Assembly: GCF_003289955.1 (NCBI RefSeq)
Contig: NZ_QLZR01000007.1
Location: forward strand, 62,001 to 126,000
Length of the DNA: 64,000 bases
Direction of reading: 5' to 3'
Origin: Planococcus halotolerans
GTDB taxonomy: Bacteria; Bacillota; Bacilli; Bacillales_A; Planococcaceae
Shown one piece after another: positions 14,996 to 55,120 of the stretch. A program made the position numbers and the translations under genes. The notes below the pieces were generated by a model. The model was not told where the DNA came from. It was given only the letters and a program-made list of their open reading frames with translations, and made no database searches. The first letter of the stretch is position 1; every line of letters begins with the position of its first letter.

Positions 14996-15088
14996 CAGGC
15001 GGACGCTTTCCGCGGGAGTGGCCTGAGCCTCCTCAGTCGCTTTCGCTCCTTACGGGGTCTCAGGACTCACTCTATTCCCGCAGGAAAC
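14996..15088 (+). repeat. Dispersed repeat family A, copy 1
   Basis: GC-rich element carrying the family-A marks GCTTTCCGCGGGAG, CCTGAGCCTCCTCAG, GGGGTCTCAGGACTC and CCCGCAGGA in order. Related copies are at 29115-29214 (inverted), 38610-38705 and 54764-54870. It can fold, since the CCTGAG and CTCAGG parts pair. It lies within the 572-nt gap between secG and the esterase gene. Confidence 0.85.
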
Positions 15089-15111
15089 GGTTTGCGCTTG
15101 CGCAAATCGTT

Positions 15112-15170
15112 TGCGACGAAGCAGCATAGCGATGCAGGAGCATCTCTTTGCCCTTCGCTGCCTTTCACTA
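15112..15170. repeat. C-type stem module between A1 and B1
   Basis: GCGACGAAGCAGCATAGCGATGCAGGAGCA-like segment, the inverted form of the module (GCTCCTGCATCGCT...CTTCGTCGC) nested in other repeats. The rest of the gap up to 15225 is AT-rich with nothing recognisable. Confidence 0.6.
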
Positions 15171-15225
15171 CAATTGATAATAAAATATCAATTCAAATTA
15201 GAAATATATATTTTTATATAGCTTA

Positions 15226-15460
15226 GATATGGAGCAAAACAGCGAAGACTCCCAGGGGAGCAGAACTGGAGTTGGCTTTCCAACTCCAGTTCGAGCGAAG
15301 TGCTGAGATCCACTCGGACGAAGTGAAACGAGTACGAGTTAGCTCAGCGCAAGCCAAGAGTTGGCCGTAGCCTGCAAGGCCGGCTCTTTGCGACGAAGCT
15401 AGCGCAGCGATGCAGGAGCACGGGTTTGGGAAAGCGCAGCTGTTTTGCGAAATATCGATT
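15226..15460 (+). repeat. Dispersed repeat family B, copy 1, with nested C module
   Basis: Begins GATATGGAGCAAAACAGC and ends GCTGTTTTGCGAAATATC, an imperfect terminal inverted repeat. Inside are a hairpin ACTGGAGTTGG/CCAACTCCAGT, then GCTGAG...CTCAGC arms. A C module (about 15350-15422, TTTGCGACGAAGCTAGCGC, GCGATGCAGGAGCA) is inserted before the right end. No open frame of protein character and no transposase. Confidence 0.85.
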
Positions 15461-15474
15461 ATATTACCACTATA

Positions 15475-15508
15475 AAAGAAAACGCCCAACCAGTTTATTG
15501 GTCAGGCG
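15475..15508 (-). terminator. Terminator of secG
   Basis: Stem CGCCTGACCA/TGGTTGGGCG (two wobble pairs) followed by TTTTCTTTT on the minus strand. Confidence 0.75.
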
Positions 15509-15523
15509 ATTTAGTCATCTACA

Positions 15524-15751
15524 TTATACTTTCGTTACGGCGATAGCCAAAATAAAGAATAAGGCAGCAAGTACAATCGTTACACGATGAAGGACAAGAT
15601 CAAGTCCCCGTGCTTTTTGCTTGCCGAAAAGTTGCTCAGCTCCACCGGAGATGGCTCCTGAAAGACCTGCACTTTTTCCTGATTGTAATAATACGACAAC
15701 GATTAATGCGAGCGATACGATGACGAGTAAAGTCATTAACAACGTATGCAT
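15524..15751 (-). CDS. secG: Preprotein translocase subunit SecG
   Basis: Small membrane subunit of the SecYEG channel, 75 residues (76 in B. subtilis). Two membrane segments, about residues 3-23 and 52-72, flank a Gly/Ser-rich cytoplasmic loop with [24 protein letters not shown], the family signature. The start is the ATG at 15751 because AGGAGGTGG is 5 nt upstream and the longer frame starts inside it. It lies between eno and the esterase gene, with a terminator on each side. Confidence 0.95.
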
Positions 15752-15828
15752 AAATTCCACCTCCTGAATAAAACCTTCACAACAAGAATAAGTTTATCAA
15801 AAATTGTGACCTATGACAATAGCAATAG

Positions 15829-15854
15829 AAAAAAGAGGCAATGCCTCCTTTTTT
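15829..15854 (-). terminator. Terminator of the glycolytic operon after eno
   Basis: Short GAGGC/GCCTC stem with a 3-nt loop, flanked by A6 and T6 runs, directly after the eno stop codon. Confidence 0.75.
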
Positions 15855-17165
<1,311 letters not shown>

Positions 17166-18698
17166 TTAGAATAATGGTTTTCCGGTCATTTCTGCCGGTT
17201 GTTCGATATCCAATAACTTTAAGATGGTTGGTGCCAAGTCGGCAAGAATGCCATCCGGCTTCATTTCCAGACCTGATTTCGTAATGATTACCGGTACCTG
17301 ATTGGTCGTATGCGCCGTCATAGGCAAGCCTTCAGTGGTCAGCACTTCGTCTGAATTTCCGTGATCGGCCGTAACAATCGCCGTTCCGCCTTTAGCGTGC
17401 AAGGCCTCGATAATTCTTCCCAAACACTCATCGACAGCTTCAATCGCCTGAATAGTAGGTTCCAACAATCCGCTGTGCCCTACCATATCCGGATTGGCAA
17501 AATTGAGGATGATGGCATCGTGCGCTTCCGCTTCGATCTGTTCGACAAGTTTATCAGTTAATTCATATGCGCTCATTTCCGGTTGAAGGTCGTAAGTCGC
17601 CACTTTCGGAGAATCAACAAGAATCCGTTCTTCCCCCGGAAAAACCTTCTCTCTCCCGCCACTCATAAAGAAAGTGACATGAGGATATTTTTCCGTTTCC
17701 GCGATGCGTAATTGGGTCAATCCATTCGCTGAAATCACTTCGCCGACCGTATTTTCAAGATTCAACGACTCAAAAGCGATCCGGGTCGGCAAAACATCAC
17801 TATAAGAAGTGAACGATACAAAAGTCAGTCTGTCGGGATGATTCGGGCTCAACGGAAAACCGTTAAACTCGTTGGTGATTAATGTTGACGTCAATTGAAT
17901 CGCACGGTCCGGCCTGAAATTGAAGAAGATCAGGGAATCCTGCGACTTGATCGTTGCAACGGGTTCGCCATTCTCTTCTATATAAAAAGGTACGACGAAT
18001 TCGTCCATTACTCCCTGATCATAGGAGCGAACAACCCCTTCGCTTGCAGTGGAGGCATAAAGCCCAGTTCCATCCACTAATACACGATAGGCAGTTTCTG
18101 CACGGTCCCAGCGTTTATCGCGGTCCATTGCATAATAGCGTCCGCTGATCGATGCAAATTTACCGACCCCTATTTCCGCCATTTTTTCTTCTGTTTTTTC
18201 GATATACTGCAGGGCAGTTTGCGGGCCGACATCTCGGCCGTCCAAAAAGCCATGGACATAAACTTCATCCAATCCTTGCTGTTTGGCCAATTCCAATAGA
18301 GCAAAGAGATGCTCATAATGGCTGTGGACGCCGCCGTCTGACAGTAAGCCCATCAAATGAAGAGCGGAGCCGTTTGATTTCGCTTTGGCGATAGCTTCCA
18401 GGAATGCTGTATTCTGAAAGAAGTCCCCTTCCCTGATCGCTTTATTGATACGTGTCAGGTTCTGATAGACAATGCGGCCTGCACCAATATTCAAATGGCC
18501 CACTTCCGAGTTTCCCATCTGGCCGTCCGGCAATCCCACCGCTTCACCTGAAGCAGTAAGCAACTCATGCGGATAGCTATTCCATAATTTATCGAAATTC
18601 GGTTTTTTTGCCTGTGCAACTGCATTGCCAAAAGTTTCTTTCCGGCAGCCAAAGCCGTCCAGGATGATCAAAGCCACCGGATTTTCTGTATTACGCAT
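17166..18698 (-). CDS. gpmI: 2,3-bisphosphoglycerate-independent phosphoglycerate mutase
   Basis: Manganese-dependent interconversion of 3- and 2-phosphoglycerate; 510 residues (511 in B. subtilis). An alkaline-phosphatase-like fold with the phosphoserine site in [18 protein letters not shown] near residue 62 and metal residues in [13 protein letters not shown] and TADHGNSDE. The start is the ATG at 18698, 9 nt after GGAGG; a longer frame runs upstream into tpiA. It overlaps the tpiA stop by 8 nt, indicating translational coupling. Confidence 0.97.
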
Positions 18699-19452
18699 TT
18701 GCACCAGCCTCCAGTAATTTGAGGAATGACTCAGCTTCGAGACTTGCTCCTCCGACCAAAGCCCCGTCAATATGCTCCATATTCATCAGTTCTTCGATAT
18801 TCGCCGGTTTAACACTGCCGCCGTATTGGATCCGGACTGCACCAGCTGTTTCTTCATTATAAAGAGATTCGATTTTTTTACGGATGATGCCGCATACTTC
18901 ATTGGCATCCTCTGCCGTAGCCGTTTTACCAGTTCCGATCGCCCAGATTGGTTCATAAGCGATCACCAGTTCAGCCGCCTGTTCAGCAGATAGTCGAGCC
19001 ACGCCTTTTTCGACTTGCGCTTCAACTACATTGCCGGTATCTCCACTGTCACGTTGTTCGAGCGATTCACCGACACATAAAATCGGTTTCAAACCGTGTT
19101 CAAAAGCAGATACTACTTTTCTGTTCGCCGATTCATCAGTTTCATTGAAATATTGACGGCGTTCAGAATGGCCGATAATAACGTATTCAACACCCAAATC
19201 TTTTAATTGGACAGGGCTTACCTCTCCGGTAAACGCCCCTTCTTTTTCTTCATGCATCGTCTGCGCACCGATTTTCAAATCAGTATTTCCAGCAGACTCC
19301 ACTAAATTTTGAAGAAATAAAGCAGGTGCACAGATAACGGCGTCTACTTTCTCAGCCGAAGGCAATGCTGTTTTAACTTCCTCTGCAAAAGCTTTTGCTT
19401 CAGCTGCTGTTTTGTACATTTTCCAGTTTCCCGCGATAATCGGTTTTCTCAA
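18691..19452 (-). CDS. tpiA: Triosephosphate isomerase
   Basis: Interconverts dihydroxyacetone phosphate and glyceraldehyde 3-phosphate; 253 residues, as in B. subtilis. It shows [12 protein letters not shown] (active-site Lys), [11 protein letters not shown] (electrophile His), [14 protein letters not shown] (catalytic Glu) and the phosphate loop VQYGGSVKP. The start is TTG at 19452, with AAAGGGAG 7-8 nt upstream; no in-frame ATG fits the family N-terminus. It lies between pgk and gpmI. Confidence 0.97.
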
Positions 19453-19502
19453 AAAAACACTCCCTTTCTCATAATGTGGCAAACTATTAAAGTTGTAAGT
19501 TC

Positions 19503-20690
19503 TTACTTCTTGTCTGTAAGTGCAGTTACACCAGGCAATTCCTTGCCTTCCATGAATTCAAGCGAAGCTCCGCCACCCGTCGAGATATGGTCCATTCTTT
19601 CGGCTACATTGAACTTCTCAACTGCTGCCGCAGAATCTCCTCCTCCGATGACTGTATAAGCCTCAGTTTCGGCCATCGCCTCTGCAACGGAACGTGTTCC
19701 ATTTGCAAATGGCTCCATTTCAAAAACACCCATTGGCCCATTCCAGATAACCAGCTTCGAATCTTTTATGACATTCCGGTAGAGCTCTACAGTCTCAGGC
19801 CCAATATCAAGCCCCATCCAATCGGAAGGGATTTCTTCGATTTTCACTTGCTTTGTTTCAGCATCTTTTGAAAATTCGCTGGCTACAGTGGCATCGATTG
19901 GAAGATAGAATTTCACGCCTTTTTCTTCAGCTTTTTGGATAAAGGTTTTAGCCAATTCCAATTTATCTTCTTCCACAAGTGAATTTCCGATTTCATAGCC
20001 TTTTGCTTTAATGAACGTGTACGACAATCCGCCGCCGATCAACAGGTTATCCACTTTATCAAGCAAATGATCGATGACACCGATTTTATCTTTCACCTTG
20101 GCACCGCCAATGATAGCGGTAAATGGACGTTCCGGTTCAGACAACGCTTTTCCGAGGACATCCAGTTCTTTCTCAAGCAAAAGTCCTGAAACTGATGGAA
20201 GATGTTTCGCAATGCCTGCTGTAGAAGCGTGAGCGCGGTGCGCTGCTCCGAAAGCGTCATTGACAAAGACATCTGCGAGATCAGCAAAGGATTTTGCCAG
20301 TGTTTCATCGTTCTTTTCTTCTCCTGCATGGAAGCGGACATTTTCTAATAGAAGGATGTCGCCTTCCTGCATATTGCCAATTTCTTTTTCGACAGTTTCG
20401 CCGACTGATTCTTTCAGGTTTTTAACATCTTTATGTAGCAATTCACTCAAACGAGCCCCTGCCGCAGCAAGCCTCGTCTCTTCATTGACTTCGCCTTTTG
20501 GACGCCCCAAATGGCTTGCCAATATTACTTTCGCCCCGTTTTCAACCAGATATTCGATGGTCGGGACAGCTGCGCGGATTCGTGTATCATCCGTCACTTC
20601 TCCGTCTTTCATCGGTACGTTGAAATCGACTCGGCAAAATATGCGTTTCCCTTTCAAATCCAAATCTTTCATGGTCATTTTCTGCAGCAT
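19503..20690 (-). CDS. pgk: Phosphoglycerate kinase
   Basis: Makes ATP from 1,3-bisphosphoglycerate; 395 residues. The family N-terminal signature [13 protein letters not shown] is present, with [10 protein letters not shown], the hinge region ILGGAKV-like [13 protein letters not shown] and the C-terminal GGGDSAAAV nucleotide loop and [21 protein letters not shown] at 20690 follows GGAGG at 7 nt. It is 111 nt downstream of gapA, a gap that contains a terminator-like hairpin. Confidence 0.98.
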
Positions 20691-20713
20691 GAAAATACCT
20701 CCTATTTGTATTC

Positions 20714-20751
20714 AAAAAAATAAGGGGCGGGGTAAATTCCCCACCCCTTTT
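20714..20751 (-). terminator. Hairpin between gapA and pgk (terminator-like)
   Basis: Eleven-nt arms AAGGGGCGGGG/CCCCACCCCTT around a 6-nt loop; on the minus strand it is followed by TTATTTTTTT. It should end or process much of the cggR-gapA transcript while letting some reach pgk. Confidence 0.7.
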
Positions 20752-20801
20752 ATCCTCTTTTATTATAGAGGTTCATCGGTAATTAAGCTATGATTTTGGG
20801 A

Positions 20802-21809
20802 TTACAGCCCTTTGCTGTGCATGTGCAAAGCAAGATCGATGCAACGTCCTGAATAACCGGACTCATTATCATACCAAGCCAATACTTTGACCATGTTCCC
20901 GCCAAGTGCCATCGTTGATAAACCATCGACAGTGGCAGAAGCCGTGTTGCCGTTATAGTCTTTTGAGACAAGTGGAAGATCGCTGTACTCCAAAGTGCCT
21001 TTCAATTCGTTCTGAGTAGCTTCTTTCAGAGCTGCATTCACTTCTTCAACAGAAACTTCAGTATCCAATTCTGCCACAAGGTCGATTAGAGAGACGTTTG
21101 AAGTTGGAACGCGGATTGCCATTCCATCAAGTTTGCCTTCCAGTTCAGGAAGCACTTTAGTAACAGCTACCGCAGCTCCTGTTGTTGTAGGAATCATGGA
21201 TTCTGCAGCTGCACGTGCGCGGCGGTAATCCTTGTGCGGAGAATCCAATAGAATCTGGTCATTCGTATAAGAATGGATCGTCGTCATCATGGCTTTCTTG
21301 ATGCCGAATTTATCATTCAATACTTTTGAAATTCCTGCAAGGCCGTTTGTTGTACAAGATGCGTTTGATACAACATCATGCTCTTCCGGATTGTAAGTGT
21401 CATGGTTAACGCCCATAACAAGTGTTTTCATACCATTTTTGCCTGGAGCCGAAACGATGACTTTTTTCGCTCCTGCTTCGATATGTTTTGAAGCAGATTC
21501 AGAATCTGTAAAGAATCCAGTCGATTCAACAACGATATCAACTCCAAGGTCTCCCCAAGGAAGGTTCGAAGGATCTTTTTCTGAGAATACACGGATTGTT
21601 TTGCCGTTGACAACAATGTTATCGCCTTCAGCAGAAACTTCAGCATCCAATGTTCCGTGAATTGAATCGTATTTCAATAGATGCGCAAGCATTTTAGCAT
21701 CTGTTAAATCGTTTACTGCCACAACTTCCACTTCGTCGTTTGTCATTGCTCCACGGAATACAATACGTCCAATGCGGCCAAAGCCGTTAATCGCTAATTT
21801 TAAAGTCAT
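20802..21809 (-). CDS. gapA: Glyceraldehyde-3-phosphate dehydrogenase, glycolytic (GapA)
   Basis: NAD-dependent oxidation of glyceraldehyde 3-phosphate; 335 residues. Rossmann motif INGFGRIGR at the N-terminus, acidic AVND loop near 31-34 favouring NAD, catalytic Cys152 in SNASCTTN, His in the IHSYTNDQ segment and C-terminal WYDNESGYS. Its place directly after cggR marks it as the glycolytic rather than gluconeogenic enzyme. ATG at 21809 lies 1 nt from the cggR stop, with AGGAGG overlapping the cggR end. Confidence 0.98.
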   Translation of the reverse strand: MTLKLAINGFGRIGRIVFRGAMTNDEVEVVAVNDLTDAKMLAHLLKYDSIHGTLDAEVSAEGDNIVVNGKTIRVFSEKDPSNLPWGDLGVDIVVESTGFFTDSESASKHIEAGAKKVIVSAPGKNGMKTLVMGVNHDTYNPEEHDVVSNASCTTNGLAGISKVLNDKFGIKKAMMTTIHSYTNDQILLDSPHKDYRRARAAAESMIPTTTGAAVAVTKVLPELEGKLDGMAIRVPTSNVSLIDLVAELDTEVSVEEVNAALKEATQNELKGTLEYSDLPLVSKDYNGNTASATVDGLSTMALGGNMVKVLAWYDNESGYSGRCIDLALHMHSKGL

Positions 21810-21810
21810 T

Positions 21811-22854
21811 TCAATTTCCTCCTATGTTTTCAATAAGTTTAAGAACTTCTGTCGCAGCACCTTCATCGGTAACCAATACTGTTCGTTCTGGTGCGTTTTT
21901 GAAATAAGAAAGTATCGCTTTCGCTTTCGAATGTCCGCCAGCTACTGCAATAATATTGGGGGCTTTTTGCACTTGTTCCAATTGGATTCCCGCTGAACGG
22001 ATGCGGTAAACAACATTGCCTTCTGCATCAAAATAATATCCGAAGGCTTCACTGACGGCACCGCCTTCAGTGATCATCTGAACTTCTTCCGCGGTTGACT
22101 GACGCCTTAGGGCCAATTCTTCGGCATTGCCGATTCCATGGACAACCAGATCAGTTTGTTCATAAAGATCCATCATTTCCTTGATGAGCGGTTCTTTCAT
22201 CATCATGGCATAGGCTTCTTCACTTAGATGATCAGGTAAATAAAGCGTCTTAAATGAACCGCCGGTTTTTTCAGCAAATGCGGAAGCAATGGTATTCGCC
22301 TGATGCAGAACATCTTCACCCAAGCCGCCGCGCGCTGCAATGAATTGCAGGGAAGGATAAGCTTTTTCGCCTTTCAGTTCTTTGGCGATTGCCGCCATCG
22401 TACTGCCTCCCGTCACGGCAACTTTGGTTTCACCGGTGAAATTCATTTCAAGGAGCCGTGCAGCTTCTTTTCCAATCTGATTTTTAACAGTTACTGCTGT
22501 ATCAGAATCCAAAGGAACCACAATGACATCCGAAATCTTCAATTGCTTTTTCAACTTGTCCGCGAGATCAGCAATTCCTGTCAGCTTTTGCATGAAGGAT
22601 TTTAATGAATCGAGAACTTCTTCGCCTTGCCTGGTTATCACCATGCCTGCGGATTTCATCTCGATTAATTGCTGCTCACGCAACAGGTCGGTTTCTTTTC
22701 GGATATCACGTTCTGTCATTCCGGAAAATTCACTTAAGGTTCTCCTGCCAATCGGCTGTTCCTGATTAATTGTCTGCAGGATCTGGTAACGTTTTTTCAG
22801 GAGCACGGACATTTCCGGCAACAGTTTATTCTGTGCTGAAGATAAAGCATCCAT
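21811..22854 (-). CDS. cggR: Central glycolytic genes regulator CggR
   Basis: SorC/DeoR-type repressor of the glycolytic operon, 347 residues. The N-terminal winged helix-turn-helix is at about 15-75 (ISR-type TLSEFSGMTERDIRKETDLLREQQLIE), and the sugar-phosphate-binding domain covers about 90-340 with VAVTGGSTMAAIAKEL and VVHGIGNAEELA. By knowledge of B. subtilis CggR, fructose-1,6-bisphosphate relieves repression. First gene of the operon; its operator and promoter lie directly upstream, so it represses itself and the genes below. Confidence 0.96.
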   Translation of the reverse strand: MDALSSAQNKLLPEMSVLLKKRYQILQTINQEQPIGRRTLSEFSGMTERDIRKETDLLREQQLIEMKSAGMVITRQGEEVLDSLKSFMQKLTGIADLADKLKKQLKISDVIVVPLDSDTAVTVKNQIGKEAARLLEMNFTGETKVAVTGGSTMAAIAKELKGEKAYPSLQFIAARGGLGEDVLHQANTIASAFAEKTGGSFKTLYLPDHLSEEAYAMMMKEPLIKEMMDLYEQTDLVVHGIGNAEELALRRQSTAEEVQMITEGGAVSEAFGYYFDAEGNVVYRIRSAGIQLEQVQKAPNIIAVAGGHSKAKAILSYFKNAPERTVLVTDEGAATEVLKLIENIGGN

Positions 22855-22874
22855 AGATTCACTCCATTCCAGCT

Positions 22875-22911
22875 GGACAAAATTTATCCCACCGATAAAT
22901 TTTCTGTCCCA
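22875..22911 (-). promoter_or_regulatory. CggR operator
   Basis: On the coding strand it shows two tandem GTGGGA-type half-sites 19 nt apart (GTGGGACAG and GGTGGGATA), and overall an inverted repeat GGACA...TGTCC with AATTTATC/GATAAATT arms. It lies between the promoter and cggR, the same place as the CggR operator of B. subtilis. Confidence 0.72.
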
Positions 22912-22919
22912 CTAAATTC

Positions 22920-22948
22920 ATTCTACCTAATAGTAATTCTGAATGCAA
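22920..22948 (-). promoter_or_regulatory. Sigma-A promoter of the cggR-gapA-pgk-tpiA-gpmI-eno operon
   Basis: -35 TTGCAT, 17-nt spacer, -10 TAGAAT on the minus strand, immediately upstream of the CggR operator, so bound CggR would block elongation rather than polymerase binding. Confidence 0.75.
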
Positions 22949-22961
22949 CAAAAAAGAAGCA

Positions 22962-23192: not shown

Positions 23193-23246
23193 GGGTAACC
23201 TACTTTCTTTTATGTATTATATTATTTGAACTAAAAATCTATAGCA

Positions 23247-23511
23247 ACCGATATTCCGCAAAACAGCTCCGAAGACATTAGGCGACGCTTACGAGGTTAA
23301 TGTCTTTGCGACGAAGTGCGCAGCACTGCAAAGCTCTTTCATGTCTCGAAGCTAGCGTAGCGGTGCAGAGACAGGAGCACGTGATTTTTATTTCAACATG
23401 CTGGTCCTGCACTAACTTAAACCCATGCTCCTGCATCGCTGCGCTAGCTTCGTCGCAAAGAGTCGACCTTGCAGGCTTCGGTCGACTCTTCGCTGTTTTG
23501 CTCCATATCGC
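23247..23511 (-). repeat. Dispersed repeat family B, copy 2, with two C modules
   Basis: Starts with GATATTCCGCAAAACAGC (right end of B, inverted) and ends GCTGTTTTGCTCCATATC (left end). The interior differs from other B copies: the conserved hairpin core is replaced by two oppositely oriented C modules (about 23290-23380 and 23430-23500), the latter carrying a strong AGTCGACC/GGTCGACT hairpin. It fills the 580-nt gap between the glutaredoxin gene and tRNA-Arg. It is the only B copy here without a neighbouring family A. Confidence 0.78.
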
Positions 23512-23690
23512 TAGAGTTCCTTCTAGCGCCGGCGCGTCTATGGAGCAGGCGAATGCCGACGGAGCAAAAGACGAGTGGTCTTCTCGGCTTATTGCGGGAG
23601 CTAAGGTGCGCCATAAACTTTCGGCGCCACCTTTGCGACGAGCAGTGCGCAGGAGCATAATCTTCGCCCTGTCCTAAGCGCCGAAGCGGT
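23512..23690. repeat. GC-rich structured segment next to B2 (family D, single copy here)
   Basis: Segment with many short inverted pairs (GGCGCC, GGCGCACC-like), a C-like end CTTTGCGACGAGCAG...CAGGAGCATA and CGCCGAAGCGG at its edge. It looks like another repeat type but only one copy is in the window. No supported protein. Confidence 0.5.
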
Positions 23691-23730
23691 ATATATAGTG
23701 TATTTAATTAGCTTGCAAAAATCCTAAAAG

Positions 23731-23766
23731 AAAAAACCCGCTCCGCCAAATTTTGGCAAAGCGGGT
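23731..23766 (-). terminator. Terminator of tRNA-Arg
   Basis: Outer stem ACCCGCT/AGCGGGT with an inner GCCAAA/TTTGGC arm; on the minus strand it is followed by TTTTT. Confidence 0.85.
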
Positions 23767-23775
23767 CTCATCATA

Positions 23776-23847
23776 TGCCCTCGGAGGGGATCGAACCCCC
23801 ATTACAAGAATCGGAATCTTGGGTGTTATCCATTACACTACGAGGGC
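23776..23847 (-). tRNA. tRNA-Arg (anticodon CCG)
   Basis: 72-nt tRNA with acceptor GCCCTCG/CGAGGGC, D arm with GTAATGGATAAC, anticodon stem CAAGA/TCTTG around TTCCGAT (anticodon CCG, codon CGG), and T loop GGTTCGATCC. The 3' CCA is not encoded. A tRNA-Arg next to clpP is also found in B. subtilis. Confidence 0.96.
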
Positions 23848-23922
23848 GTTTCTGTCTTAGCGACTTTACCAGTATACAAAATATACAGGCACATATCAAG
23901 TTGATATTTTTAATTCGTTAGA

Positions 23923-24630: not shown

Positions 24631-24632
24631 AG

Positions 24633-24743
24633 AAAAGCGTAAGCGCCCGTTCAGCTCTGTGCTCCTGCATCGCTGCGCTAGCTTCGTCGCAAAGCCTTGA
24701 CCTCGCAGGCGTCGGTCAAGACTTGGCCGCTGGAGTCTGGACA
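24633..24743 (+). repeat. Dispersed repeat family E, copy 4, with nested C module
   Basis: Edges AGCGCCCGTTCAGCTCTG and GCTGGAGTCTGGACA match the E units at 28523-28768, but the centre (24657-24722) is a C module: GCTCCTGCATCGCTGCGC, TAGCTTCGTCGCAAAG and a CTTGACC/GGTCAAG hairpin. It lies between the clpP stop and its terminator. Confidence 0.78.
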
Positions 24744-24755
24744 ATAGAAAAGCAT

Positions 24756-24790
24756 AAAAATCCCGCAGCCTTAAGCTGCGGGATTTTTTT
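24756..24790. terminator. Bidirectional terminator between clpP and crh
   Basis: Thirteen- to fourteen-bp stem AAAAATCCCGCAGC/GCTGCGGGATTTTT with a 5-nt loop between convergent genes. Confidence 0.92.
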
Positions 24791-28522: not shown

Positions 28523-28645
28523 AAGAAAAGCGGCAGTGCCCGCTAAGCCCCGACAAGCGCTGGAGGACTTGAAAGTAATAGCGTTCTTTGCCATTACTGG
28601 CAAGATCGAAGCGACTCGAGGGGCTGGGCCACTGGAGTCTGGACA
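28523..28645 (+). repeat. Dispersed repeat family E, copy 2 (tandem with copy 3)
   Basis: Edges AAAAGCGGCAGTGCCCGC and GGCCACTGGAGTCTGGACA. The outer arms pair: AAGCCCC (28546 region) with GGGGCT before GGGCC. The central stem (AGTAATAGCG...CCATTACT) differs from copy 3. Starts about 30 nt upstream of the nudix start. Confidence 0.82.
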
Positions 28646-28647
28646 GA

Positions 28648-28768
28648 GGAAAAGGGGAAGTGCCCGTTAAGCTCTGAAAGGCATAAGACGATCTGGCGGA
28701 GCGACGTCTTTTGCCGCAGAGCCAGAGTGGCTTATGACCCGAAGAGCTGGGCCACTGGAGTCTGGACA
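28648..28768 (+). repeat. Dispersed repeat family E, copy 3
   Basis: Direct tandem repeat of copy 2: AAAAGGGGAAGTGCCCGTTA at the left edge and GGCCACTGGAGTCTGGACA at the right. Arms AGCTCT/AGAGCT and a stem GGCATAAG/CTTATGACC close the centre, which again differs from copy 2 while the edges match. Confidence 0.82.
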
Positions 28769-28815
28769 AAAAAGAAAAGGAATAAACATTAGCTAGTTGA
28801 GAAAGAATAAATGAA

Positions 28816-29022
28816 AACCGATATTCCGCAAAACAGCTCCGCGAAAACAGGTGCTCCTGCATCGCTTAGCTAGCTTCGTCGCAAAGACTTGGCCGAACTC
28901 CCTTCGGCCAAGTCTTTCCTGGTGGCTCGCGCTGAGCTAACTCGGTCTCGTTCCACTTCGCCCGAGTGGATCTCAGCACTTCGCTTAGTCACCTGGGAGT
29001 CTTCGCTGTTTTGCTCCATATC
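28816..29022 (-). repeat. Dispersed repeat family B, copy 3, with nested C module
   Basis: Inverted B element: starts GATATTCCGCAAAACAGC and ends GCTGTTTTGCTCCATATC. It holds a C module (28849-28916, GCTCCTGCATCGCT, CTTCGTCGCAAAG, CTTGGCC/GGCCAAG hairpin) and the GCTGAG...CTCAGC arms, but lacks the ACTGGAGTTGG hairpin seen in copies 1, 4 and 5. The 93 nt from here to copy A2 are AT-rich. Confidence 0.84.
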
Positions 29023-29114
29023 TTCAATCACCTTCTGTATAAAATATTCATTTCAGCTTATTTTAAGTCTAGGAGTAGATTCTATATCCCTAAACAGAAT
29101 CAAAATGAAGTGAC

Positions 29115-29214
29115 AGACGGTGACTCCTGCGGGAACAAGAGCGAGTCCTGAGACCCCGCAGGGAGCGTAGCGACTGAGGAGGCTTAGGCCGCTCCCCGCG
29201 GAAAGCATCCGTCT
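29115..29214 (-). repeat. Dispersed repeat family A, copy 2 (inverted)
   Basis: AGACGG...CCGTCT terminal pair, with GACTCCTGCGGGAA, GAGTCCTGAGACCCC, GACTGAGGAGGCT and CCCGCGGAAAGC. It is inverted relative to copies 1, 3 and 4, and so is the neighbouring B copy, so the A-to-B relation is kept. The remaining part of the gap to 29357 is AT-rich with nothing recognised. Confidence 0.87.
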
Positions 29215-29357
29215 AGAACGTAATGATTAAATAAGTTGAAGATTTCTCGACAGCCTAAAATATACATACCAGCCTCTTTCCAAAGTTTTGTCGAATTAAC
29301 ATATATAATTAAACTTCACCAGTCATTTACAATCCGCCTTATAAAAATAGTGAACAC

Positions 29358-38575: not shown

Positions 38576-38609
38576 GAATAAGGCAAAAAATTACCTACTT
38601 CTCCAATCA

Positions 38610-38705
38610 TTCCGCTGGGAGCTGCCTGAGCCTCCTCAGTCGCTACGCTCCCTGCGGGGTCTCAGGACTCGCTCTGAATCCAGCAGGAGTCGCCGCCTGC
38701 CGCTA
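38610..38705 (+). repeat. Dispersed repeat family A, copy 3
   Basis: CCGCTGGGAGCTGCCTGAG, CCTCCTCAGTCGCTACGCTC, GGGGTCTCAGGACTCGCTCT and CAGCAGGAGTCGCC in family-A order. It is about 60 nt downstream of the his promoter but points away; the following 86 nt to B4 are AT-rich. It lies in the 511-nt gap between hisZ and yvoF. Confidence 0.86.
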
Positions 38706-38791
38706 CATTTTAATGTATTGCAAAACCGTGTGAGAGCTTAACCGCTAATTAGTGGATGGGTAAATTAATGCTTATAGAAGGTGTTTTTTAA

Positions 38792-38956
38792 GATATGGAG
38801 CAAAACAGCGAAGACTCCCAGGGGAACAGAACCGGAGTTGGCATTCCAACTCCGGTTCGAGCGAAGTGCTGAGATCCACTCGAGCGAAGTGGAACGAGCT
38901 CGAGTTAGCTCAGCGCAAGCCCCCAGGAAAGCGAGCTGTTTTGCGCAATATCGGTT
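38792..38956 (+). repeat. Dispersed repeat family B, copy 4
   Basis: Compact B element of about 165 nt without a nested C module. Ends GATATGGAGCAAAACAGC and GCTGTTTTGCGCAATATC pair at 16 of 18 positions. Interior hairpin ACCGGAGTTGG/CCAACTCCGGT and GCTGAG...CTCAGC arms. The hairpin shows a paired change (A-T to C-G step) relative to copy 1. Confidence 0.88.
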
Positions 38957-38980: not shown

Positions 38981-39010
38981 AAAAAACCCCGAGAGCTATT
39001 GCTCCCGAGA
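38981..39010 (-). terminator. Terminator of the hprK-lgt-yvoD-ppaX-yvoF cluster
   Basis: Stem CTCGGGAGC/GCTCTCGGG (two wobble pairs) with loop AATA, then TTTTTT on the minus strand; the loop-side arm includes the yvoF stop. Confidence 0.8.
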
Positions 39011-39517
39011 TTTTTCCTCGCGTTCGGCCATTTGTTCAGCTGTATAAATAATTTGCATCGGGTTGCCCCCGACAAATGCTCCGGCCGGCACATCCTTATG
39101 CACAAGCGTAGCGGCGGAAACAATTGCTCCGTCCCCTATAGTGATGCCTGGAAGAATCGTGCTGTTCGCACCGATCATGACGCGATCGCCGATAATGACA
39201 TCACCCAGACGGTATTCTTCAATCAGATATTCATGTGCCAGAATCGTGGTATTGTAGCCGATTACTGAATTTTTGCCGACCGAAATGCGTTCCGGGAACA
39301 TCACATCAAGCATCACCATTAACGCGAATGATGAATGTTCCCCTACCTTCATGCCGAGAAAATTCTTATACAACCAGTTTTTCATCGGCAGAAATGGCGT
39401 ATAGCGGGCCATTTGGATAACGACAAAATTCCTGGCGACTTTCCAAAAAGGCACTGTTTTATAAACATGCCAAAGTGAATTCGGACCGGTCACGAAATGG
39501 CGTTCTGTCCTTCTCAT
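38996..39517 (-). CDS. yvoF: Acyltransferase of the hexapeptide-repeat family (YvoF-like)
   Basis: Putative O-acetyltransferase of 173 residues. The left-handed beta-helix has imperfect hexapeptides (ISVGKNSVIGYNTTILAHEY, VIIGDRVMIGANSTILPGITIGDGAIVSAATLV), with the catalytic-type His in LAHEYLIEE and the closing GAFVGGNPMQII. Substrate unknown; wall or surface sugar acetylation is possible. Last gene of the conserved hprK cluster, overlapping ppaX by 4 nt. Confidence 0.88.
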   Translation of the reverse strand: MRRTERHFVTGPNSLWHVYKTVPFWKVARNFVVIQMARYTPFLPMKNWLYKNFLGMKVGEHSSFALMVMLDVMFPERISVGKNSVIGYNTTILAHEYLIEEYRLGDVIIGDRVMIGANSTILPGITIGDGAIVSAATLVHKDVPAGAFVGGNPMQIIYTAEQMAEREEKSREQ

Positions 39518-44415: not shown

Positions 44416-44420
44416 CTGTT

Positions 44421-48545: not shown

Positions 48546-48550
48546 TCCGA

Positions 48551-50533
48551 TCACCCTTCCGCTTTCAGTTCAAGCACAGTATCGCGCAGCTCCGCTGCCC
48601 GTTCGAAATCGAGCGCTTTTGCTGCTTCTTTCATTTCTGTTTCCAATAAAGCAATCAGTTTCAGGCGATCTTCTTTTTTGAGTTTTTTGCCTGATGTCGC
48701 TTTTGATACATATTCTTCCGCTTCTTCCGACGCCACAGTTGCCCGGATAACATCGCGGATTTTCTTTTGTATGGTAATCGGCGTGATGCCGTGTTCTTCA
48801 TTATATGCCGCCTGTATCGTACGCCGGCGCGTTGTTTCATCCATCGCTTTTTGCATTGAATCCGTTATTCTATCAGCGTACATGATAACCTGGCCGTTTG
48901 CATTCCGGGCGGCTCGTCCCATCGTCTGGATAAGAGCGCGTTCAGAACGCAGGAAGCCTTCCTTGTCAGCATCCAGAATCGTCACGAGGGAAACTTCCGG
49001 AATATCAAGTCCTTCCCGCAGCAAGTTGATGCCGACCAGTACATCATAGACACCCATCCGCAGTTCGCGGATAATTTCAATTCGTTCGAGCGTTTTGATC
49101 TCGGAGTGAAGGTAATTGACTTTGACTCCCGCTTCTTTTAAATATGCGGTCAGATCTTCTGACATTTTCTTCGTCAGTGTTGTAATCAGTACACGCTCAT
49201 TCCGTTCCGCACGCTCCCGGATTTCATCCATAAGATCATCTATCTGTCCTTCGATCGGACGGATTTCGATGGTCGGATCCAGCAATCCTGTCGGACGGAT
49301 GATCTGTTCCACCATTTCCGGTGTATGTTCCAGTTCATAAGGACCCGGCGTTGCCGAAACAAAAACGGCCTGATCGATATGCTCTTCGAACTCTGTAAAA
49401 GTCAGCGGACGGTTGTCCATTGCTGAAGGCAGACGGAAACCGTGGTCAACCAGCACTTTTTTTCTTGCCTGGTCACCATTGAACATGCCGCGAACCTGCG
49501 GCAGTGTAACGTGGCTTTCATCGACCACCAAAAGGAAGTCATCCGGGAAATAATCGATTAACGTGTAGGGCTGCGCCCCCGCTGGACGCAAAGTCAGATG
49601 GCGGGAATAGTTTTCGATTCCTGAACAAAAACCCATTTCGCGCATCATTTCAAGATCGTAGCGTGTTCTTTGCTCTAAGCGCTGCGCTTCCAGCAGCTTA
49701 TCTTCAGCACGCATCTCTTTCAGCCGCTCTTCCAATTCCGCTTCGATATTTTCAATGGCCTTGACCATCTTCTCTTCACGCGTTACGAAGTGGGATGCCG
49801 GGAAAATGGCAGCATGTTCCCGTTCACCGATGATTTCACCGGTTAATGCGTCCACTTCCCGGATGCGGTCAATTTCGTCTCCGAAAAATTCGACCCGCAA
49901 ACACCTTTCATCTCTCGAAGCCGGGAAGATTTCAACAACGTCTCCGCGCACACGAAATGTACCGCGAATGAAATTGATGTCATTGCGCTCATATTGAACA
50001 TCCACAAGTTTGCGCAATAACTGGTTGCGTTCAATTTCCATTCCTTTGCGCAGGGATACCACGAGTTCCCGGTACTCTTTCGGGGAACCCAAACCGTAAA
50101 TGCACGAGACCGAAGCAATGACGATTACATCATCACGTTCGAAAAGCGACGAAGTGGCCGAGTGGCGAAGCTTATCGATTTCGTCGTTGATGCTCGCATC
50201 TTTTTCTATATAAGTATCAGATTGGGGCACGTACGCTTCCGGCTGATAATAATCGTAATAACTGACGAAGTACTCAACCGCATTATCCGGGAAAAATTCC
50301 TTGAACTCGCTGTACAGCTGCCCGGCCAATGTTTTGTTGTGGGCCATGACGAGCGTCGGTTTCTTCACTTGCTGAATAACGTTCGACATCGTATACGTTT
50401 TCCCTGTACCGGTGGCACCGAGCAGGGTCTGGAACCGCTTGCCTTTGTAGATTCCCTTGGTCAATTCAGCAATCGCTTGCGGCTGATCGCCGGCAGGTTC
50501 ATATGGAGCTTGCAAATTGAATTCCTGTTTCAT
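48551..50533 (-). CDS. uvrB: Excinuclease ABC subunit UvrB
   Basis: Damage-verification helicase of 660 residues. Walker [13 protein letters not shown] near 38-49, the beta-hairpin region [12 protein letters not shown] near 92-105, helicase motifs DESHVTLPQ and QTMGRAARN, and the C-terminal UvrC-binding coiled coil ([26 protein letters not shown]). ATG at 50533 follows GGAGG. A LexA-like box lies upstream, consistent with SOS control of the uvrB-uvrA operon known in Bacillus. Confidence 0.98.
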
Positions 50534-50601
50534 TTATATAGTCCTCCCGTTTTTCAATACCTCTATTTTATCATATGCCCTAAAATTCCCCTAACAAAAA
50601 G

Positions 50602-50615
50602 CGAACGTATGTTTT
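50602..50615. promoter_or_regulatory. LexA (DinR) box upstream of uvrBA
   Basis: CGAAC-GTAT-GTTTT agrees with the Gram-positive SOS box CGAACRNRYGTTYG except for the last G and one pyrimidine-compatible base. It lies just upstream of a TTGTTA/TATGAT type promoter for uvrB. Confidence 0.7.
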
Positions 50616-50633
50616 TTCGTATAAATTAAAGGA

Positions 50634-50666
50634 ATAAAAAAAGAACCGCTCCGAGGAGCGGCTCTT
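50634..50666 (-). terminator. Terminator of the IDEAL-domain gene
   Basis: CCGCTCC/GGAGCGG core stem extended by GA/TC pairs; on the minus strand it is followed by seven T. Confidence 0.85.
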
Positions 50667-50672
50667 CTTTGA

Positions 50673-50912
50673 TCAGGATTCTTCGCATTTTAAAGCCTGC
50701 AATTGCTGGCTGTATCGATTGAATGCATTACGGTCATTAGTGTCCAGGGCTTCATCTATAAGTTTCATGAGCTGTTCTTCCTGTTGCGAGCGGTGCACAT
50801 GTTTAAGGAATAGATCGAGATAAATCTCGTTCAACAATTTTTCCGCTTCGGAAATCTTCTTCGTTTGAGCCATTGCCTTCATGAAATCAGCATAAGAATA
50901 ATAGTTTTCCAT
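50673..50912 (-). CDS. Small IDEAL-domain protein
   Basis: Protein of 79 residues, highly charged and probably all-helical. It contains the hallmark IDEALDTNDRNAFNRYSQQL at about 51-70, the IDEAL domain also found at the C-terminus of YpiB and of ComK/ClpC-related adaptor-like proteins in Bacillales. Function unknown; short interaction module is likely. Terminated before uvrB. The ComK-type gene is the next one, divergent, across a 177-nt AT-rich gap. Confidence 0.82.
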   Translation of the reverse strand: MENYYSYADFMKAMAQTKKISEAEKLLNEIYLDLFLKHVHRSQQEEQLMKLIDEALDTNDRNAFNRYSQQLQALKCEES

Positions 50913-51026
50913 TCTACCTCACCCCGAATGCTTTTCATTAGTATACATGATAAATAAAAAAAGAACAATAATTATTTAGAAAATTCCAACGATAATTATT
51001 CCGGCCTGTTTTAAAAATTAAAAAGA

Positions 51027-51054
51027 TTGTATATTTTCCAATTATTATTATAAT
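51027..51054 (+). promoter_or_regulatory. Probable promoter of the comK-like gene
   Basis: TTGTAT, 16-nt spacer, TATAAT in a very AT-rich leader. No exact ComK box (AAAA-N5-TTTT) pair was found. Confidence 0.6.
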
Positions 51055-51089
51055 AGGTAGAGTAAAGTAAATTTTGGGGGTGTTTTAGC

Positions 51090-51641
51090 ATGGGCCGAAA
51101 GATTTATAATCCCTTCTCTTATACAGTTTGTAATACTACATACGCATTAATCCCGCATATCGATGGTTCGCGCCTCGTGACCCGGGTGCTTGAAGACCGC
51201 AGTGAATTTCTGATAGAGCAAACCGCTTATAAAACGATTACTGGTTCATGTTCTTTTTATCGCGGCTCACTTGAAAGTGCTACTCTTTACGCCCAAAAAG
51301 CTGTAGGAGTCAAGCATAAGCCTCCAATCATCATTGGAGAATATTACGGCAATCCACTGATATTCTTTCCCACTCATTCACCAAAAAACAAAGAGTCTGT
51401 CTGGTTCAATTATGATGCCATCGATTTGATTGAAAGCGATGATCGCGGAGGCAGCGTAGTCTATCTTGGAAATGGCCAATCCGTCTGTTTGGATGTTTCT
51501 GCCATCGCCCTTCGAAACCAGCATTCATTTGCCGGGTCTTTGCGGCGCTATTTTAAAAAAGCGCAGAATCAGCATAGACAGCAGCTGACCTACGTCACCA
51601 AACGCCCGATGCCGATCCGTCCCCGGCATCCTTCCGATTAA
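51090..51641 (+). CDS. comK: ComK-family competence transcription factor
   Basis: Protein of 183 residues resembling B. subtilis ComK (192). Shared segments include RVLEDRSEFLI (cf. KIIEKDCVFYV), GSCSFYRGSLESA, the invariant KHKPPIIIG and IFFPTHSPKNKESVWFNYDAID. ComK binds AT-boxes to switch on DNA-uptake genes. The C-terminus is rich in Arg, Gln and Pro and shorter than in B. subtilis, where the tail holds the MecA/ClpC degradation signal. The ATG follows GGGGGTG. Its last four nucleotides overlap the end of the opposite gene. Confidence 0.85.
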   Translation: MGRKIYNPFSYTVCNTTYALIPHIDGSRLVTRVLEDRSEFLIEQTAYKTITGSCSFYRGSLESATLYAQKAVGVKHKPPIIIGEYYGNPLIFFPTHSPKNKESVWFNYDAIDLIESDDRGGSVVYLGNGQSVCLDVSAIALRNQHSFAGSLRRYFKKAQNQHRQQLTYVTKRPMPIRPRHPSD

Positions 51642-52003
51642 ACTTTCATTTCCGCCATTGACAGGTAGATGCGGATCAGTTCTTCCACCCGGTTGCGCAG
51701 GCGCAGGTTCAGGTAGCGCCGGTGGTCCTCATACCCGCCGTGATAAAATACATATTCGGTAAAGGTATCATCTCCTGCGCCGCGCATCACCTTCATCTGG
51801 CGCTTCCGCATATGTATTTTTGTTTCTTTCAATTCTTTCTGCACCTGGCTGATTGCTCCTTCGACCAATTCCAGATATGGACGCTTCAGCTTAAAAGAGC
51901 CATTTTCAAATAAGGTCCTGTCACGTTCAAGTACAATCAATACCATGGGCAGATAAATCATGTTCTCGAAATGGACGATTTCTTCCTGCGGAATCAAAGG
52001 CAT
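51638..52003 (-). CDS. Conserved protein of unknown function (YhjD-like)
   Basis: Protein of 121 residues, soluble, with IPQEEIVHFENMIYLPMVLIVLERDR at the N-terminus, a basic middle (KETKIHMRKRQMKVMR) and LNLRLRNRVEELIRIYLS at the C-terminus. It resembles B. subtilis YhjD, whose role is unknown; this match is from memory and moderate. Start ATG at 52003 with GAAGGTGG upstream. Convergent with comK, overlapping it by 4 nt with no terminator between. Confidence 0.65.
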   Translation of the reverse strand: MPLIPQEEIVHFENMIYLPMVLIVLERDRTLFENGSFKLKRPYLELVEGAISQVQKELKETKIHMRKRQMKVMRGAGDDTFTEYVFYHGGYEDHRRYLNLRLRNRVEELIRIYLSMAEMKV

Positions 52004-52142
52004 ATCTTCACCACCTTCACGAATTAGCCTTGATGTAAAGACCACTGCTATGTGGCTTCGACAATTAACACACTAAAGGGAACACTTGTTCTTATTTCTA
52101 ATTGTACTCTCTATTTCCGGAATTGCAATATGCTAAACATAA

Positions 52143-52176
52143 AAAAGCTCCGCGCAACATGCGCGGAGCTTTTATT
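52143..52176. terminator. Strong terminator between yhjD-like and ABC1 kinase genes
   Basis: Thirteen-bp perfect stem AAAAGCTCCGCGC/GCGCGGAGCTTTT; on the minus strand it ends the kinase gene whose stop codon overlaps it. Confidence 0.92.
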
Positions 52177-53788
52177 TTATCGAACGATAGACAATCAGGG
52201 ATGCCACGAAGGCTCCTGATGAAACCCATAGATAAGGTTCGTGTGAAAACCAGACGGAAATGGAAATTCCCGTAAATGACAGGATACTGAAGATGCCGGC
52301 GAACATTCGGCTTTGAAGATCACGCCGGTATTCCCGCATGCGGCCGTCACGGTTTTCAAGATAATTGCGCATGCGCTCCGGTTCCTCAAGATAATTGATG
52401 ACTTTCTGTGGAAAAACGCGGAGAGGACCAGTTGAATTGAGGATCCATCGTAATACATCCCCTCTTCCAAAAACCTTTTCCCCTTCTTTCTGTGACGATG
52501 CCCATTCCAATATACGCGGCCGGGCCAGCGCCATCAGATCAACTTTCGGATTGAGCACATGCAATACTCCGATAAATATCGACACGGCCCTGCCAAAGAA
52601 AGCGAATTCTGAAGGAAGCTGAACCGGTTGTGTGCGGACAATGTTTTGAAGGTCCTGCAACAGCCGCTCTACCACAAAACTGTCCATCTCCATCAATTCA
52701 TTCGACTCATACGCAGTGACCAGACGGGAGATCGTATCTTTCAAAACTTCCCGGTCAGCATGGGGCAAAAGGAAACGAAGTTCTTCCAGCCCATCCAGAA
52801 CCTGATCATAGTTTTTGAAGATGATGCCCTCAGCTATCCGCAGGACCGACTGTGAATCGGACTTACGGATAACGCCGGTCATGCCGAAATCAATCAGCAC
52901 AATCGTTCCGTCTCTTTTCAACAGGATATTGCCGCCATGTGGATCGGCATGAAATTGGCCTCCGTAAAGCACCTGTTCCAGAAACAGGATAAACAGCCGT
53001 TCCGAAATTTCAAAACGGTCCAAATCATTCCTTTCAATAAATGCAAGGTCTGTAATCCGTGCGCCTTCGATCCAATCCATAACCAGTACGTGGCGGGTGG
53101 ATAGCTCATCAAAATAACGCGGAAACTCGATGCCGTCCATTTCATCAAAACGTTCCGCGAAGCTCCGGCCATTCTGCAATTCCTGCTGAAAATTCAATTC
53201 AGCACCGATGGTTTCTGTCATTTCTAAGTATAATTTCGTGAAATCGACTTGTTTCGTAAAGCCGGTGAATCTTCGTGCCATCCAGATGACAATGCGCACC
53301 GCCTGGAAATCTGCACGTAAAATGCGGCCTGTCCCCGGGCGCTGCACTTTTATCGCCACTTCAGTTCCGTCTTTCATCACACCTTTATATACTTCTCCTA
53401 TCGAAGCGGAAGCGATTGCCTCATCAGAAAGATGTGTTAGATAGGTCGTGTACGGTGTATTCCATTCCTGTTCAAGAACGGCGACAATTTTTTCGCGATC
53501 CACCGATGGGACGCGGTCTGTCAGACCTTCCAGTTCAGCAAGGAAACTCGGCGGCATAATATCTGCACGGGTCGACAGGAACTGTCCAAGTTTAATCATC
53601 AGCCCACCGAGTTGAAGAGCAAGAATTTTATATTCCTTGGCCATTCCGGTAACAAGTTTATTCCATTTTTCTTCGACCAGCGGATTCCAATTTCCACGAT
53701 GGCGCTTTTGGAAGAACGTTGCCCGCATAAAGAATTTTACAGCCATAAAAACTATTCGAAAAACACGTATAAATGTAACTTGATTCAT
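52172..53788 (-). CDS. ABC1/UbiB (AarF) family atypical kinase
   Basis: Protein of 538 residues. The family-specific KxGQ motif is LGGLMIKLGQFLSTRADIMP near 65-80; the Ala-rich loop replaced by SASIGEVYKG; catalytic lysine in VAIKVQRPG; HADPHGGNIL with the catalytic Asp; IDFGMTG metal loop. Two membrane segments at about 490-535 anchor the C-terminus. Relatives assist isoprenoid quinone synthesis or lipid handling, with ATPase rather than protein-kinase action. In a menaquinone-using Bacillales species its exact role is unclear. Confidence 0.92.
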   Translation of the reverse strand: MNQVTFIRVFRIVFMAVKFFMRATFFQKRHRGNWNPLVEEKWNKLVTGMAKEYKILALQLGGLMIKLGQFLSTRADIMPPSFLAELEGLTDRVPSVDREKIVAVLEQEWNTPYTTYLTHLSDEAIASASIGEVYKGVMKDGTEVAIKVQRPGTGRILRADFQAVRIVIWMARRFTGFTKQVDFTKLYLEMTETIGAELNFQQELQNGRSFAERFDEMDGIEFPRYFDELSTRHVLVMDWIEGARITDLAFIERNDLDRFEISERLFILFLEQVLYGGQFHADPHGGNILLKRDGTIVLIDFGMTGVIRKSDSQSVLRIAEGIIFKNYDQVLDGLEELRFLLPHADREVLKDTISRLVTAYESNELMEMDSFVVERLLQDLQNIVRTQPVQLPSEFAFFGRAVSIFIGVLHVLNPKVDLMALARPRILEWASSQKEGEKVFGRGDVLRWILNSTGPLRVFPQKVINYLEEPERMRNYLENRDGRMREYRRDLQSRMFAGIFSILSFTGISISVWFSHEPYLWVSSGAFVASLIVYRSIK

Positions 53789-53890
53789 GAGCGGGGTCCC
53801 TCCTTGTGTTCATTATAGGCACTGATGGCGGAATAGTCCAAAAAGTGGTATGTTTTTATATGGATGGCAATTAGACAAAGGGGGATGGAA

Positions 53891-54667
53891 ATGGAGACAA
53901 TCCATTACGAACAAAAAGGGAATCTGGCCTTTATTACATTGAATCGCCCGGATGCGATGAACGCATTTAATTACGATATGCTGAATGAGCTTGGCCAAGT
54001 GGTCGAAGCTATTCGCATCAATCCTGATATCCGGGTAGTGGTCTTTACCGGAGCCGGCGAAAAGGCATTCAGTGTAGGCGCGGATTTAAAAGAACGGAAA
54101 ACGTTGACGGATCAGCATGTAAAACGCAACATTTACAAAATCGGCGAAGTTTTCTCTACTATTGAAAATCTTCCACAGCCCACCATCGCCATGATCAACG
54201 GTTTTGCGTTTGGCGGCGGCATGGAATTGGCGCTGGCCTGCGATTTCCGTATTGTCGCAGACAGCACGCTGCTTGGCCTGACAGAAACAAGCCTCGCCAT
54301 TATTCCCGGCGCCGGTGGAACACAGCGTCTGCCGAGGCTGATCGGCGAATCGAAAGCGATGGAACTGATATTGACTGCACGCAGATTGAAACCGGCGGAA
54401 GCATTGGACTACGGTCTTGTAACACGAGTGGCAGCACCGGAGGAACTGGCAAGAGTAACCGGTGAATTTGCCGATTCGATGCTCGCAAACGGTCCGATTG
54501 CCCTGCAGCAAGCAAAGTTCGCCATTAAAAACGGGATGAATGCGGACCTTCAAACGGGACTGCACATCGAAAGAAAAGCTTACGAATTGACGATTCCAAC
54601 AGAAGACCGCGTCGAAGCATTGCTTGCTTTCGGTGAAAAGCGCAAACCTGTGTTTAAAGGGAAATAA
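53891..54667 (+). CDS. Enoyl-CoA hydratase/isomerase family protein
   Basis: Crotonase-fold enzyme of 258 residues. NRPDAMNAFN near residue 17, oxyanion segment GAGEKAFSVGADLKE near 63 and INGFAFGGGMELALACDFRI near 105, then the catalytic Glu in ETSLAIIPGAGGTQRLPRLIG. Likely hydrates short-chain trans-2-enoyl-CoA in fatty-acid or amino-acid degradation. The start is the second ATG (53891), 6 nt after GGGGG. Divergent from the kinase gene, monocistronic. No FadR box was seen in its short leader. Confidence 0.9.
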   Translation: METIHYEQKGNLAFITLNRPDAMNAFNYDMLNELGQVVEAIRINPDIRVVVFTGAGEKAFSVGADLKERKTLTDQHVKRNIYKIGEVFSTIENLPQPTIAMINGFAFGGGMELALACDFRIVADSTLLGLTETSLAIIPGAGGTQRLPRLIGESKAMELILTARRLKPAEALDYGLVTRVAAPEELARVTGEFADSMLANGPIALQQAKFAIKNGMNADLQTGLHIERKAYELTIPTEDRVEALLAFGEKRKPVFKGK

Positions 54668-54686
54668 AAATACTTAGGTAATCAGT

Positions 54687-54716
54687 AAAAGCCATCCGTC
54701 AACCGGATGGCTTTTT
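54687..54716 (+). terminator. Terminator of the enoyl-CoA hydratase gene
   Basis: Twelve-bp stem AAAAGCCATCCG/CGGATGGCTTTT with a 5-nt loop and T run. Confidence 0.92.
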
Positions 54717-54763
54717 ACGCATTCTATTGTGAAACGATCAGCTTCTGTTAATCATTACGCTTT

Positions 54764-54870
54764 AGGTGGACGCTTTCCGCGGGGAGCGGCCTGAGCCTCC
54801 TCATCGCTGACGCTCTTGCGGGGTCTCAGGACTCGCTCTGTTTCCCGCAGGAGTCGCCACCTGCCGCTTC
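54764..54870 (+). repeat. Dispersed repeat family A, copy 4
   Basis: Family marks GCTTTCCGCGGGGAG, CCTGAGCCTCCTCA, GGGGTCTCAGGACTCGCTCT and CCCGCAGGAGTCGCC in order. Ends form an inverted repeat, AGGTGG...CCACCT. Lies in the 486-nt convergent gap between the hydratase and S9 peptidase genes; the 84 nt to B5 are AT-rich. Confidence 0.88.
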
Positions 54871-54954
54871 ATTCTCGAATCATCTAAAATTGAAGTCCCT
54901 GCTTTTTAAAGAGATATTGCAATTAACTGTTTCTCTATATAGAAAACGTTTAGA

Positions 54955-55120
54955 GATATGGAGCAAAACAGCGAAGACGCCTTGGGGAGCAGAACTGGAG
55001 TTGGCTTTCCAACTCTAGTTCGAGCGAAGTGCTGAGATCCACTCGGGTGAAGTGCAACGAGACCGAGTTAGCTCAGCGCGAGCCCCCGGCAAGCGAAGCT
55101 GTTTTGCGGAATATCGATTA
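54955..55120 (+). repeat. Dispersed repeat family B, copy 5
   Basis: Compact element of 166 nt without C module. GATATGGAGCAAAACAGC and GCTGTTTTGCGGAATATC ends pair at 15 of 18 positions; interior ACTGGAGTTGG/CCAACTCTAGT hairpin and GCTGAG...CTCAGC arms as in copies 1 and 4. Confidence 0.88.

Follow-up and report, generated by a model that had tools for sequence, protein, structure and literature searches.

The question raised by this stretch of Planococcus halotolerans DNA is whether two repeated hairpins that travel together are parts of a single element and, if so, of what kind. The window analysed is the whole stretch of 64,000 nt (C15:62001-126000) from a 3.62-Mb assembly of 17 contigs, referred to below as the own genome. 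A first-pass annotation had described four pairs in which a repeat A is followed, in fixed relative orientation, by a repeat B. All four pairs were recovered at the places, on the strands and in the order described, and each A in the window has a B downstream on the same strand (Table 1). The left end of B, ATATGGAGCAAAACAGCGAAGAC, occurs without mismatch at 15227 (+), 28999 (-), 38793 (+) and 54956 (+), and the core of A, GGGGTCTCAGGACTCGCTCT, at 15054 (+, one mismatch), 29138 (-), 38656 (+) and 54820 (+); a shuffle control gave 0 matches for either. With the borders as redrawn in our analysis, the gap from A to B measures 117, 79, 80 and 79 nt in copies 1 to 4, copy 1 having an extra hairpin module between its A core and the gap. 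A fifth copy of B type is preceded by a different hairpin, C, and not by A. Among the four window copies only copy 2 has both terminal repeats in recognizable form, and copy 4 looks chimeric because its right end is of C-B type. A separate repeat family, GGCCACTGGAGTCTGGACA, adjoins copy 2 and also occurs elsewhere (window 28613-28659, 28736-28782 and 24711-24757); inner M-type modules are found beside it as well.

Table 1. Features of the repeat copies, in window positions.
Feature	Position	Strand	Remark
Copy 1 A hairpin with inserted M-type module (~15105-15142)	14988..15175	+	right border by eye
Copy 1 B hairpin (long form, containing inner modules)	15226..15457	+	
Copy 2 left terminal inverted repeat AGGCTGTCGAGAAA	29243..29256	-	
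Copy 2 A hairpin	29102..29230	-	
Copy 2 B hairpin	28819..29022	-	
Copy 2 right terminal inverted repeat TTTCTCAACTAGCT	28791..28804	-	whole element ~28791-29256
Copy 3 A hairpin, 5' part truncated relative to the models	38608..38711	+	
Copy 3 B hairpin	38792..38953	+	
Terminator-like hairpin (A and T tracts) on the right side of copy 3; left side without a counterpart	38981..39016	.	by eye; no duplication scored
Terminator-like hairpin left of copy 4; single copy	54687..54716	.	
Copy 4 A hairpin	54748..54875	+	
Copy 4 B hairpin	54955..55116	+	
Copy 4 right end, C-B type TTAGTTCAACTTATATAG	55131..55148	+	by eye
Fifth B-type copy, C-B composite	23248..23600	-	

The pairing holds beyond the window. 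When 50 merged stretches surrounding BLAST matches in the own genome were searched for modules, 60 clusters emerged: 29 C-B, 13 A-B, six B without a recognized partner, six C alone, one A alone and five with an inner module only. The annotation had proposed counting how often A precedes a nearby B on the same strand genome-wide, and this is the case at 13 of 15 A loci (13 of the 14 A clusters of the module search, together with one A found by BLAST only, at C1:22953, which has no B); BLAST matches by themselves give 11 of 13. For each A, the chance that a B lies downstream on its strand at a distance of no more than 450 bp is about 0.006, and at about 0.6% per A the four-of-four match in the window is indeed unlike random insertion. 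The pairing is nevertheless one-sided, since the 48 B clusters divide into 13 with A, 29 with C and six without a recognized partner. The usual partner of B is the C hairpin, not A. Among nine own-genome copies in which it was measured, the gap from A to B is 79-80 nt in five and 117-286 nt in four, the latter having modules inside A or modules that are unmatched. Inner modules recur across the A, B and C types, sometimes inverted.

Relatives were sampled from both sides of the unit. An exact 19-base piece of the B left end retrieved at least 110 stretches and, among the 80 listed, all belong to Planococcus or Planomicrobium except one Indiicoccus and one Paenisporosarcina. In those 110 stretches the module search identified A together with B in 31 clusters, C together with B in 36, B by itself in 44 and A by itself in two; A and B lie on opposite strands in two of the 31 (L104, L168). 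When loci were chosen instead by A, taking the best one from each of 30 genomes with the own genome among them, 28 were readable, and a recognizable B stood downstream on the same strand at 14 and was absent at the other 14, a count that diverged copies of B may escape as B was sought with own-genome queries. Transposase frames are present at two of the 14 loci without B, L241 and L247. Neither hairpin is tied to the other: B is found behind C as well, in a composite whose ends differ, and A is found ahead of a transposase gene.

The borders of the unit lie outside A and B. In the flanks of A-B copies a common end sequence is recognizable on each side, AGGCTGTCGAGAAA on the left and TTTCTCAACAAGCT on the right, and one and the same hairpin, plus A and T tracts, is often present on both. 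The unit spans terminal repeat to terminal repeat and is thus larger than A-spacer-B. We scored units from the own genome and from Planococcus relatives by local alignment of left against right flank, taking those with a recognized B right end and enough flank, with a reach of 200 nt leftward and a threshold of at least 26. This score was attained by 15 of 33 A-B units against three of 260 mismatched flank pairs, no duplication being scored in the other 18. The own genome supplies three of the 15, no window copy being among them, and flank alignment of the four window copies, with copy 4 compared also with relatives, found none between doubled hairpins. For C-B the figures are three of 55 against five of 433 control pairs, so that terminator duplication is not above control; for B without a recognized partner they are six of 37 against one of 295, comprising three strong hairpin repeats and three weak AT-rich matches. 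Exact hairpin repeats of 32 and 27 nt at the own-genome loci L009 and L003 were missed by the test because they lie beyond its reach. In the sample chosen by A, a flank score of 34 was reached by four of the 28 loci.

We folded all 15 A-type repeats scoring at least 26 and three of the six from unassigned units, leaving out the other three (26-27, AT-rich). All 18 form single hairpins that end at most 5 nt from both ends of the repeat, a result that is free of any trimming choice for 16 of these 18 and for 18 of the 19 insertion-sequence repeats considered below; three repeats (L257/L330, C10:132208, L106) had been shortened to the hairpin before folding. Judged by fold and sequence, most A-B repeats resemble an intrinsic (rho-independent) terminator, with a T tract after the stem-loop and a position close to the end of a gene. 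Short, devoid of a transposase gene and bounded by terminal inverted repeats, A-B fits the description of a miniature inverted-repeat transposable element (MITE), its ends being degenerate in many copies. As a search pattern, the terminal repeats gave 14 matches in the own genome and 13 in a backwards control; apart from a deletion remnant, L204, and the ends of A-B units, most of the own-genome matches lie in unrelated sequence. The C-B composites end differently, in TATATAAGTTGAAC on the left and GTTCAACTTATATA on the right, as at C11:366599-366827 and C10:147742-148062.

Orthologous empty sites in relatives, a further check named by the annotation, bear this out. At C10:523161, the element lies between two hairpin copies in the own genome (L300) and in L301, whereas L302 and L303, which have that gene end too, show a single hairpin copy and no element. 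Thirty loci were compared at this site, and the argument uses these four because more distant loci differ in the stretch. At the site of window copy 4, L273 has the insertion as well, and L272 lacks it and has a single, diverged hairpin; a search there for another copy of the hairpin in L270, L271 and L273 gave none. In L271, A-B follows the same hairpin as window copy 4 (54687-54716) in the opposite orientation. As A-B thus stands in opposite orientations in two genomes, this hairpin may be a repeated target.

A possible source of transposition activity is suggested by transposase-bearing elements with the same ends. L257 and L258 have a AGGCTGTCGAGAAA-type left end and an A hairpin, followed by transposase reading frames and then the right end. 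The two halves of the transposase match the IS1182 family model NF033551 at E values of 1e-60 to 7e-74; as the frame is split, neither half reaches the 270-bit cut-off set for the whole protein. A-B units align with these elements at the left and right ends; on the left, about 150 bp of A-B, A included, align with the left end of the IS1182-type transposase-bearing elements. The flanking terminator is doubled at L257. On the right side of this insertion sequence another small element, which has an A-like hairpin, separates the second terminator copy from the third, so that three copies follow one another. L258 is flanked by two different terminators, and L332, with the same ends and without A, lies between perfect hairpin direct repeats of 33 bp. 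The L257 transposase has relatives (E at most 1e-40) in 39 of the 261 family genomes. Thirty such loci were fetched, and with three cut by contig ends, 27 were readable: 19 lie between hairpin direct repeats of 20-52 bp, some of these without clear T tracts, and eight have no hairpin repeat. An IS1182 match is present in 20 of the 46 genus genomes; none was found in the own genome.

Taken together, these sequence comparisons make it very probable that A-spacer-B is a non-autonomous transposable element, a MITE, related to IS1182-family insertion sequences. It might be argued instead that tandem duplication or recombination produced the doubled terminators and that the repeats settled between them later, A-B itself not having been inserted with target duplication. 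Recombination does occur in these repeats, as the chimeric appearance of copy 4 and the modules common to several families indicate, but duplication accompanies A-B and does not rise above control with C-B, the repeat borders meet the terminal repeats, the transposase-bearing elements show the same pattern and, at one of the two sites examined, the empty loci L302 and L303 have a single hairpin. We regard this origin as highly unlikely. Subterminal hairpins in a fixed left-right order are traits of REP/RAYT-like and IS200/IS605-like elements, which move as single strands. A-B resembles them in this respect; its inverted terminal repeats, long target duplication and the IS1182-type transposase beside the same ends make such an assignment extremely improbable.

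The annotation had left a choice between a mobile unit and a structured RNA. A consensus of B from 53 short-form copies contains 34 pairs, with 99.1% of cells paired, a share that falls to 30-40% when the 3' side is slid. Changes on both sides are seen in four pairs, against a shuffle mean of 2.0 and a maximum of 3. Yet column shuffling keeps 96.6% paired and yields 15.0 further pair types where 13 were observed; support for the B fold is thus mostly plain conservation. A two-domain structured non-coding RNA, whether a gene or a cis-regulator with its copies as functional paralogues, would be consistent with the fold kept in 53 copies, with the pairs changed on both sides and with the constant order and strand of A and B. 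We consider it very unlikely: beyond the shuffle control, the two strands fold about equally well, Rfam gave no match over the repeats (in the window, or at seven loci at E of at most 1, where neither of two matches lay on the repeats), and terminal repeats with locus-specific direct repeats are marks of insertion. The mobile half of the earlier proposal is therefore supported, given the inverted ends, the direct repeats specific to each locus, the empty sites and the transposase-bearing relatives, whereas the structured-RNA half finds no Rfam match and strands that fold alike. A reading frame beginning at an ATG in the B left end was set aside by eye, as the modules of longer copies appear to stop the frame. 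The only matches at the Rfam gathering score in the window are a tmRNA gene (10903-11256, -) and a tRNA gene (23776-23847, -).

If A-B is a MITE of this kind, it would be moved by a transposase supplied in trans. The target would be read as an extruded hairpin and cut at the base of its stem, as suggested by the borders of the repeats and their variable length, and the whole hairpin would be doubled on repair. Each neighbouring gene would consequently keep a terminator, and transcription from either side would be kept out of the element. A is probably an accessory hairpin near the left end, because the transposase-bearing L332 has the same ends and lacks it. B may be regarded as a modular hairpin that takes the place of the transposase gene; it is common also to the second composite, C-B, which has other ends and seems to lack such duplication. 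It is tempting to generalize. Transposases of this IS1182 branch may measure their target by its hairpin, cutting the DNA strands at the stem base of an extruded hairpin and so leaving a duplication one hairpin long, whatever that length (20-52 bp seen); the opposite resolution of the same cut would give hairpin loss of the IS1272 type. A composite parasite would then ride on the system, with modular hairpin B, common to two otherwise different element families, in the transposase's place. We judge the odds on this broader scheme to be even.

The available text on known systems offers both parallels and differences. IS1272 and TnSha1, IS1182-family elements of staphylococci, are described as targeting hairpins without a sequence consensus, several of them terminators, and as deleting part or all of the hairpin without target duplication (PMC4923244, PMC5678879); a review cited in both papers has palindromes targeted by some IS1182 members. 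As far as these accounts go, A-B is like them in its hairpin targets and in the apparent transposase family of its relatives, and unlike them in doubling the whole hairpin and in having no transposase gene. Hairpin-replacing insertion as for IS1272, with the hairpin lost and no duplication, is not what we found: the hairpins are duplicated. ISPse1 of Paracoccus, which shares a family by name with the relatives of A-B, appears in a table row that we read as a 4-bp direct repeat (PMC3281130), and on that reading long hairpin duplication is not general in the IS1182 family. The pneumococcal BOX, RUP and SPRITE repeats, compared by text and not by sequence, are likewise small, interspersed and strongly folded; BOX is described as built of variable modules, and such elements as inserting into one another and as common between convergent genes (PMC3049150). 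SPRITE, in that account, itself resembles a terminator, whereas for A-B the host hairpin is the target and is doubled. A survey (PMC9208149) places IS1182 among the families over-represented between convergent genes. Our literature search, which covered titles and abstract openings and subscription papers in part, found no description of the A-B element or of whole-terminator duplication.

A is present in 45 of the 46 genus genomes, and our findings give a likely origin for this intergenic repeat. The mode of insertion may spare the host: with the stop signal doubled, both neighbours can keep one. Furthermore, the contrast inside one transposase family, between a hairpin lost (IS1272) and a hairpin doubled whole, makes the reading of DNA shape by a transposase directly testable.

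A minor observation concerns the transposase frames themselves. The L332 transposase is split, as are the others, and the exact 12-mer TGGAAAAAAGCC is absent from it. In L257, L258 / L330, L331 (transposase of G001 and G036) the transposase consists of two overlapping frames related by a -1 shift, with A6G at the split. TGGAAAAAAGCC lies at the frame overlap in L330 and L331 and could be a programmed frameshift site.
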